A DNA stretch of 64,000 nucleotides. Origin: Candidatus Cardinium hertigii (GTDB lineage: Bacteria; Bacteroidota; Bacteroidia; Cytophagales; Amoebophilaceae). Under the pieces are notes generated by a model. It was not told where the DNA came from. It searched no databases and saw only the letters and a list, made by a program, of their open reading frames with translations. Below, piece by piece: positions 51,348-54,006 of this stretch. A program made the translations under genes and the position numbers. The DNA lies in contig NZ_CP029619.1 in NCBI RefSeq assembly GCF_003176915.1, positions 496,001-560,000 of the forward strand, given 5' to 3'. Numbering within the stretch: the first letter of the stretch is position 1; every line of letters begins with the position of its first letter.

Positions 51348-51914
51348 CTATAGCATAACTGTTAGATAATCTTCTGGCAAAGCTACTGTAATGGTTTGCT
51401 GTTTATCGTTCACATCCACTAAAAAAGGTGCCTCATAAGGGATCAACAGCTCTTTACCTTTATAGGTTAGGGAAACAACATATTTATTCCGCATACAATG
51501 TATGCTCTCTACCTTACCAAGTTGACCCAATAGCTGATCCTCTACTACATAACCTACTATAGCTGCCAGCTCAGCGGACGACTCCTCTGTAGGCTGCAGA
51601 GGAAGGGGAAGGAAAAGAGGGAGATTGCGCAGCCAATAGGCTTCTGTTTTAGAGGAAATTCCTTTGAGCGTTAATACGCTTTGCTTTTCCGTAAGGGGTA
51701 TGCTGCGCTGAATAACATAAGGTACTTTTACATGATTCCTTTCTACAAAGAGCGCAGGTAATTGCAACAACACTTTATCTGCTAACGGGTATAACCAAGT
51801 CGCTAGGATCTCTCCATTTATACCAGTTGGCTTTCTTAAAAAACCTGTATGAAAATATTTTTCCTCCTGAATAGCAGTATAAAATAGTTCAATAGCAATA
51901 GAACGACGTGCCAC
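51348..51914 (-). CDS. rimM: Ribosome maturation factor RimM
   Basis: A 188-aa 16S processing factor for the 30S head. The N-terminal barrel has FHTGFLRKPTGINGEILATWL, and the PRC-barrel domain has IVGYVVEDQLLGQLGKVESIHCMRNKYVVSLTYKGKELLIPYEAPFLVDVNDKQQTITVALPEDYL. In many bacteria rimM lies with rpsP and trmD; here it is next to rplC and ssrA instead. Confidence 0.9.
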   Translation of the reverse strand: MARRSIAIELFYTAIQEEKYFHTGFLRKPTGINGEILATWLYPLADKVLLQLPALFVERNHVKVPYVIQRSIPLTEKQSVLTLKGISSKTEAYWLRNLPLFLPLPLQPTEESSAELAAIVGYVVEDQLLGQLGKVESIHCMRNKYVVSLTYKGKELLIPYEAPFLVDVNDKQQTITVALPEDYLTVML

Positions 51915-52051
51915 TTTGTTGTTTTTTTCTTCTAAGAAACGGCCAAACTTAACAAGCGAACCTCTTATTTTTCAGCCGTAGTAGCGGGATTTCTTTTCAA
52001 TTGTAATTTTTTATACTACGCGTTTTACGCCCACCATTGGGCAATAGTAAG

Positions 52052-52475
52052 TGGAGTTGGAGGGAATCGAACCCTCGTCCGAATAAGCAAACCTCAACGC
52101 TTTCTACATGCTTAGTTGCTGTTTATTTTCGACGCAACCAAGGTCAGCAACGTACCTCATGTTACGCTTATGCGTTAGTATACTTAAACAGCTATCACGC
52201 CACTAGCTGCCGCAGTCCTATGTACCGATGCCCTGATGCTAACTCCATAGTACGAAAGCCAGCAGGACAAACACCCCTTAATCTATCGATTAAGCAGCCA
52301 TACGCAATCCTTCCTCCTCTTCTTCATCTAGAAGGGCGAAGCTCTTGCGACGGCGAGCGTTGAGAACAGCTAAGTTGCCGTTTATTTGTTGCGTAAGTTT
52401 TTTTGTGCGGTAATTCTTACAACACCGCGCATGCTTACATTGGATTTTAACCTCTCGTCAATACCAAACAACCCC
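52052..52475 (-). ncRNA. ssrA: Transfer-messenger RNA (tmRNA)
   Basis: On the minus strand the RNA begins ggggttgtttggta (52475 downward). It ends with the tRNA-like T-arm gagggttcgattccctc and acceptor caactcca; ggggttg pairs with caactcc. CCA is not encoded. Between them is a single tag frame, 52379-52290, from GGC through GCT GCT TAA, ending MAA. It rescues stalled ribosomes with SmpB. The tag frame appears to be 29 codons plus stop, much longer than the roughly 9-codon tags usual in Bacteroidota. Length about 424 nt. Confidence 0.93.
52290..52379 (-). other. tmRNA tag reading frame
   Basis: Starting at the GGC that follows the conserved ACAAATAAAC context, the frame reads GNLAVLNARRRKSFALLD, then five Glu, then GLRMAA and TAA, 29 residues. 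The Ala-Ala end is the normal protease signal. The stop lies in a small hairpin (cttaatc/gattaag). The resume codon position is inferred from the sequence context of other Bacteroidota tmRNAs. Confidence 0.65.
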
Positions 52476-52557: not shown

Positions 52558-54006
52558 CTAGCCCACGCTCCCCTCCAACGTTAAGGCAAGTAATTTTTGT
52601 GCTTCTACTGCAAATTCCATGGGCAATTGCTTCAAAACTTCTCGGCAGTAACCATTCACAATAAGCGCAATAGCCTGCTCCTGCTCAATACCACGCTGGT
52701 TGCAATAAAAAAGCTGATCCGCACTAATTTTAGAAGTAGTAGCTTCATGCGCAACCTGCCCCGTTGGGTTTTTTACTTCTATATAAGGGAAAGTATGGGC
52801 CCCGCAGTGGTTTCCTATTAATAGTGAATCACATTGAGAAAAATTAGTACTATGGGCCGCTGCAACTGTAAGCTTAACAAGACCCCTATAGCTATTGCTA
52901 GAGCACCCCGCCGCAATGCCCTTGGATACAATACGACTTTTTGTATGTTTCCCAATATGAATCATTTTTGTTCCGGTATCCGCTTGCTGTTTATTTTTGG
53001 TAACGGCAACGGAATAAAACTCTCCTATTGAATGATCCCCCATTAAAATACAGCTGGGATATTTCCAGGTAATGGCTGAGCCGGTTTCCACTTGGGTCCA
53101 AGAAATTTTAGCATGTGCCCCGGCACAAAGTCCTCGCTTCGTAACAAAATTATACACGCCTCCTACACCTTCTTTATTGCCAGGATACCAATTTTGAACG
53201 GTAGCGTACCTTACATGGGCACCTTTCGCTGCATAAATTTCTACTACAGCAGCATGTAATTGGTTTTCATCTCGCATAGGGGCCGTACACCCCTCTAAAT
53301 AGCTAACATAACTGTCCTCTTCTGCGATAATGAGCGTACGTTCAAATTGCCCTGTATTAACTGCATTGATACGGAAATAGGTGGAAAGCTCCATGGGACA
53401 ATGCACTCCCTTGGGAATGAAACAAAAAGAACCATCACTAAACACAGCGGTATTAAGCGCAGCAAAATAATTGTCCGTCATAGGCACTACCTTACCCAAA
53501 TAACGCTGTACCAATTCAGGATGCTCTTGCACTGCTTCACTAAAGGAACAAAAAATAATACCTAACCTGTTTAACGTCTCCTTAAAAGTAGTCGCAACGG
53601 AAACGCTATCTAATACAATATCCATCGCTACGCCTGCCAGCCTTCTCTGCTCCTCTAGGGAGATGCCCAATCGCTGAAAGGTAGCTAAAAGTAGAGGATC
53701 TGCTTCCTCTAAACTGTTTAATTTTACTTTCTGTTTGGGTTCCGCATAATAAATAATAGCCTGATAATCTATTGGGGGATAGTTAACTTTTGCCCAAGTA
53801 GGTGCTTTTAATTGCATAAAGTAATGAAAAGCCTGTAACCGCCGATCCAACAACCAAGCTGGCTCCTGCTTCCGCTCAGCAATCAACCGAATGGTATCCG
53901 CTGTTAAGCCTCTCGGGATCGTATCTACAGGGATATTACTCTCAAAACCGTACTGATACTCTGACGAACTGATGCTTTCTAATATATCTTTCGTTTGCTG
54001 TACCAT
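52558..54006 (-). CDS. sufB: Fe-S cluster assembly protein SufB
   Basis: A 482-aa scaffold protein of the SUF system, usually acting as a SufBC2D complex in the cytoplasm. Recognised by [78 protein letters not shown] and the C-terminal [15 protein letters not shown]-like segment. Normal length. sufC, sufD and sufS are not downstream here; the next feature is ssrA. The ORF stop TAG at 52558 is 83 nt before the tmRNA 5' end. Confidence 0.95.

Follow-up and report, generated by a model that had tools for sequence, protein, structure and literature searches.

The tmRNA of Candidatus Cardinium hertigii is probably a one-piece molecule of the working type whose tag reading frame is long, as it is throughout the Cardinium lineage, because it houses an extra RNA helix. 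The gene (ssrA) lies on the minus strand of the window, by which we mean the whole 64,000-nucleotide stretch of DNA analyzed here, which comes from a genome assembled as a single contig of 1,193,042 bases. The window holds one tmRNA. The Rfam model RF00023 matched positions 52475..52049 over its full length (model positions 1-374 of 374) with 117.6 bits (E 2.8e-45) against a gathering score of 47, and ARAGORN placed the same gene at 52051-52475; the terminal CCA is not encoded. On the same strand, the gene is flanked by sufB (52558-54006) and a rimM-type gene (51348-51914). No consensus sigma-70-type promoter was found upstream of the tmRNA gene; Bacteroidota promoters differ from this type. 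A search of a plasmid collection with the tmRNA returned short matches to the 3' end only. A 108-residue ORF running antisense to the tmRNA (52037-52363, plus strand; starting MGNSKWSWRESNPRP) was taken as a mechanical overlap, and gene evidence for it was not found; gene callers could wrongly annotate it.

In the alignment to RF00023, the resume codon of the model, which begins at position 93, fell on the GGC at 52379-52377, and the additional nucleotides of this tmRNA lay within the tag frame. The GGC follows pseudoknot 1 in the UA context, directly after a UAAAC pentamer (52380..52384, minus strand), and opens a frame of 29 codons that closes at the TAA at 52292-52290 (52290..52379, minus strand). 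The encoded peptide, GNLAVLNARRRKSFALLDEEEEEGLRMAA, contains a basic patch, RRRK (codons 9-12; 52344..52355), an acidic run, DEEEEE, with five consecutive Glu residues (codons 18-23; 52311..52328), and an MAA end. The first-pass annotation had described this frame, with its GGC resume context, RRRK patch, five Glu residues, and a retained MAA end at GCT GCT TAA, and both its coordinates and its reading were exact. It had also named, as the outcome that would leave only a short tag, a covariance model that moved the resume codon toward the end of the frame; the alignment gave no such downstream shift. Across the family, the resume codon is GGC, with GAY in a few members, and stands immediately after a UAANY pentamer at tmRNA position 87-103.

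We compared the tags of the genus, of the rest of the family, and of other Bacteroidota. The tags of the eight genus genomes were 27, 29, 29, 31, 31, 31, 37, and 38 residues long and shared a common plan consisting of a GNLAVIN-like start (in most of them), a basic patch, 6-8 acidic residues, and a short AA end. The remaining family tags were 9 (L010/G001, which we take to be Amoebophilus), 11, 16, 16, 18, 20, 22, 24, 27, 33, and 34 residues long. Outside the family, all 120 Bacteroidota tmRNAs sampled at the order and phylum levels encoded tags of 8-11 residues. The earlier view that the 29-residue tag is long against the short tags typical of Bacteroidota was thus borne out, whereas its description as an insertion in one reduced genome has to be replaced by a genus-wide feature (8/8) within a family whose tags differ widely in length. 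In a ClpX tree, the eight genus members formed one group (100/100), close to which lay the two short-tag Amoebophilus genomes and another group, whose tags have 16-18 residues, and the deeper family branches carried tags of 20-34 residues. Since G010, G012, and G013 have tags of 38, 37, and 29 residues despite very similar ClpX proteins, the inner part of the tag turns over fast.

The Cardinium tmRNA resembles the standard one-piece Bacteroidota molecule (tags of the GETNYALAA or GESNYAMAA type) in its match to RF00023, its UAANY-GGC junction, its L/M-A-A end, and its stop-codon hairpin. It differs in tag length and in the residues at the C terminus, which are L/M-R-M/L-A-A in most genus members and Y/F-A-L/M-A-A in standard Bacteroidota. 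The Amoebophilus tmRNA is from the same family and shares the GN start and a stop hairpin accompanied by a short outer helix; unlike the Cardinium molecule, it has a 9-residue tag (GNNQVALAA) and no insert helix. This comparison of Cardinium and Amoebophilus ssrA genes, which the first-pass annotation had proposed, sets Cardinium-type tags of 27-38 residues against one of 9 residues.

The tag region of the window folded more strongly than each of 200 dinucleotide shuffles (z -3.27), and in six of the eight genus genomes this region folded better than 96-99.5% of synonymous recodings of its own peptide. The fold, on the minus strand throughout, consists of four parts. A small hairpin holds the resume codon (52365..52382; arms 52382-52377 and 52370-52365); one of its pairs had changed on both sides, and its outermost A-U pair was kept in only four of the eight genomes. 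The outer helix of the enlarged helix-5 domain (52270..52361; arms 52361-52355 and 52276-52270) joins codons 7-9 to bases past the stop codon, with 100% of cells paired and three pairs changed on both sides. In the insert helix (52297..52354; arms 52354-52345 and 52307-52297, with a single bulge at 52302), the RRRK codons (GCCGUCGCAA) pair with the LRMA codons (UUGCGUAUGGC); 87.5% of cells were paired, and four pairs had changed on both sides. The fourth part is the stop-codon hairpin CUUAAUC-GAUA-GAUUAAG (52277..52294), in which 100% of cells were paired across the eight genomes and one pair had changed on both sides.

Exchanging helix arms between species weakened both the outer and the insert helix, with arm-swap fractions (the share of permutations) of 0.0008 and 0.005, respectively. 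Over the whole fold in alignment A2, 93.2% of cells were paired, compared with 35-48% when the partners were slid, and nine pairs had changed on both sides, compared with 4.1 in shuffles, none of 500 of which scored as high; because the compared genomes are related, these shuffle and pair-change counts overstate independence and are not independent probabilities. The insert helix was weak in G009 and G010, and the claim rests mainly on the other six of the eight genus genomes. Outside Cardinium, the helix is only suggestive, since the synonymous-recoding test on long family tags was mostly not significant (z +0.6 to -2.2), and a helix rule for every long family tag was dropped. Derivation of the insert from a mobile element or a repeat was also rejected: its 100-base stretch is single-copy in the window's genome, where the search for a second copy gave only a 17-base chance match. 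The compensatory changes support the RRRK and LRMA codons as the two strands of one helix in the enlarged helix-5 domain, so that pairing at the RNA level accounts at least in part for this portion of the peptide pattern; in the Cardinium-type genomes, most of the additional tag codons are taken up by conserved RNA structure. The RRRK patch, noted at first as a feature of the peptide, is indeed present but is not simply that, since the codons that specify it form a conserved helix with those for LRMA. A helix within the mRNA-like region, helix m, had been predicted in 197 of 197 tmRNA sequences, with two to ten pairs and the longest, of ten pairs, in Mycoplasma pulmonis, on weak support from energy only (PMC1168896).

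The tag frame was open in all eight same-genus genomes, and when this stretch was read in the other frames, 15 of 16 readings met a stop. From the resume pentamer to the stop hairpin, the length was a multiple of three in each of these genomes, and pS (0.45) exceeded pN (0.25) in the tag frame under a protein-guided alignment. In a frame-blind DNA alignment, variability at the three codon positions was coding-like for the acidic run and C terminus (0.15, 0.27, and 0.39) and not coding-like for the 5' helix arm (0.53, 0.29, and 0.35). Constraint on the peptide itself seems, from these patterns, stronger for the acidic run and the AA end than for the helix-arm codons. It is conceivable that helix 5 was enlarged purely for tmRNA stability or ribosome docking and that the added residues are a tolerated by-product, an explanation that we consider somewhat unlikely. 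The arms change letters yet keep their pairing, most clearly in G012, where nine of ten insert pairs are kept in the same register with several letters differing on both sides and where the tag has no Arg before its AA end; the noncoding-like pattern of the 5' arm and the differences of up to nine residues between tags of near-identical genomes point the same way. Against it stand the 6-8 acidic residues and AA end found in all eight tags and the coding-like pattern of the acidic run.

The window's genome encodes SmpB, ClpX, ClpP, and Lon. Its SmpB (G000:C1:570692-571096; E 6.6e-51) has kept a normal C-terminal tail, GKKIYDKRQTIKERDLER. Its ClpX aligns with the E. coli-type protein and has an intact GYVG pore loop and an intact GGRKHP (RKH) loop, the loops by which ClpX grips the ssrA tail, and the tag has the hydrophobic-AA type of end (MAA) that ClpXP reads. 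Both ClpX and ClpP were encoded in all eight genus genomes, and Lon was present in most genomes. A PF04386 (SspB) profile search found no match in the window's genome, whereas the E. coli and Caulobacter controls were positive, and an SspB-assisted tag was set aside. Given the conserved ClpX loops and the lack of an SspB match, the effect on ClpXP or adaptors envisaged in the first-pass annotation is speculative. Because SmpB, ClpX with intact loops, ClpP, and Lon are all encoded, ordinary trans-translation followed by ClpXP degradation is the likeliest route that we would predict. In G010 (L048), G011 (L043), and G013 (L046), smpB lies approximately 70-160 bases upstream of the tmRNA on the same strand; in the window's genome, unlike these three, the two genes are about 22 kb apart.

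In the mechanism that we favor, an extra RNA helix in the mRNA-like/helix-5 region lies within the tag frame and would enlarge that frame. If the tmRNA is expressed, a stalled ribosome would pick up at the GGC and decode 29 codons as it passes through the folded region, and these codons, together with the non-encoded Ala of the charged tmRNA, would give a 30-residue tail ending in MAA, predicted to read (A)GNLAVLNARRRK...RMAA. ClpXP, with its usual ssrA-gripping loops, would most probably degrade the tagged product via the terminal AA. RNA pairing would largely account for the RRRK patch and for the LRM that precedes the AA, while the acidic run and AA end would be kept more at the peptide level; the acidic run may serve as a flexible, soluble spacer in addition to the degron. 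A dual-coded degron, in which the in-frame helix dictates much of the tag and the acidic segment has been selected as a new handle for a protease or adaptor, seems unlikely to us.

We give still less weight to an adaptive peptide whose basic and acidic segments together serve as a second signal, recognized by Lon, by a different protease, or by an unknown adaptor. The tmRNAs of Mesoplasma florum and Mycoplasma pulmonis also have long tags, in reduced genomes as in Cardinium. In mollicutes, which lack ClpXP, the AAA+ proteases are reduced to FtsH and Lon (PMC8138137), and Lon is the sole ssrA-degrading protease of M. florum (PMC10873288). This precedent, the presence of Lon in most genomes, and the acidic block conserved in the eight tags would fit such a signal. 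Unlike mollicutes, however, Cardinium has ClpX and ClpP with the ClpX loops intact, a draft genome without a full Lon match (G013) has the same tag type, and the basic patch is tied to RNA pairing. A Mesoplasma-like replacement of lost ClpXP by Lon, with a Lon-dependent long tag of the mollicute type, was rejected, as ClpX and ClpP are present.

Equally improbable in our estimation is neutral lengthening during symbiont genome decay, with a drifting tag interior and no selection on length. Tag length does vary fast in both genus and family, and the lifestyle is obligately intracellular, but the helices show compensatory changes, the acidic content is constant, the frame is open, and the AA end is kept; moreover, A. 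asiaticus-like relatives of the same lifestyle keep tags of 9-11 residues. Finally, a short true tag, with resumption near the frame end and the upstream codons as untranslated structure, is very improbable: ARAGORN called the shorter EEEEEGLRMAA in the window and the upstream codons are structured, but the covariance model places the resume codon on the GGC, neither the UAANY-GGC context nor its spacing from the first pseudoknot varies within the family (including the 9-residue L010 tag), no stop interrupts the upstream frame in any of the eight genomes, and the ARAGORN calls for same-genus loci disagree with one another. The ARAGORN tag is a heuristic choice contradicted by the covariance model and by the family relatives, since their resume codons directly follow UAANY, and it serves as a warning that such calls are unreliable in Amoebophilaceae.

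Known ssrA tags range from 8 to 35 residues according to a review (PMC8012679); the 37- and 38-residue tags of two Cardinium genomes exceed that range and would be among the longest in bacteria. A tmRNA database paper gives 10 residues as the commonest tag length, highlights extremely short tags only, and does not mention Cardinium in its text (PMC11915505). In the Cardinium papers examined, tmRNA figures as an annotation only, and the Cardinium tmRNAs may sit unremarked among the 97,179 sequences of the database. Although Bacteroidota tags are of almost constant length, those of this single family of intracellular symbionts run from 9 to 38 residues, and the lengthened Cardinium frame doubles as structured RNA. 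The family thereby offers a natural series bearing on the limits of tag length, on the reading of a folded mRNA-like region by ribosomes, and on the latitude for change in the inner tag as long as ClpXP still reads the terminal AA.

Two tags in the family end in VA rather than AA (G005, L077, ...VALVA; G006, L076, ...LLRMVA), and the ClpX RKH loops of both genomes are altered, with NKRHS and GRRNP, respectively, replacing GRKHP, as if tag end and unfoldase had changed together. G003 (L064) combines a ClpX loop of RRKNP with a tag ending in AAVAA. In G004 (L022, L078), the 22-residue tag ends in RLAA; for ClpX this genome yielded just a fragment at a contig, and for ClpP it yielded no strong match, so ClpXP may have been lost or may be missing from the draft assembly. 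The tag frame of the G016 tmRNA (L025) reads DEQPVH, an in-frame TGA, and then APEGAFMKVLPVEIPAAA and TAA; four other genes examined in this genome end in TAA or TAG, and the TGA may represent a sequence error, a premature stop, or recoding.
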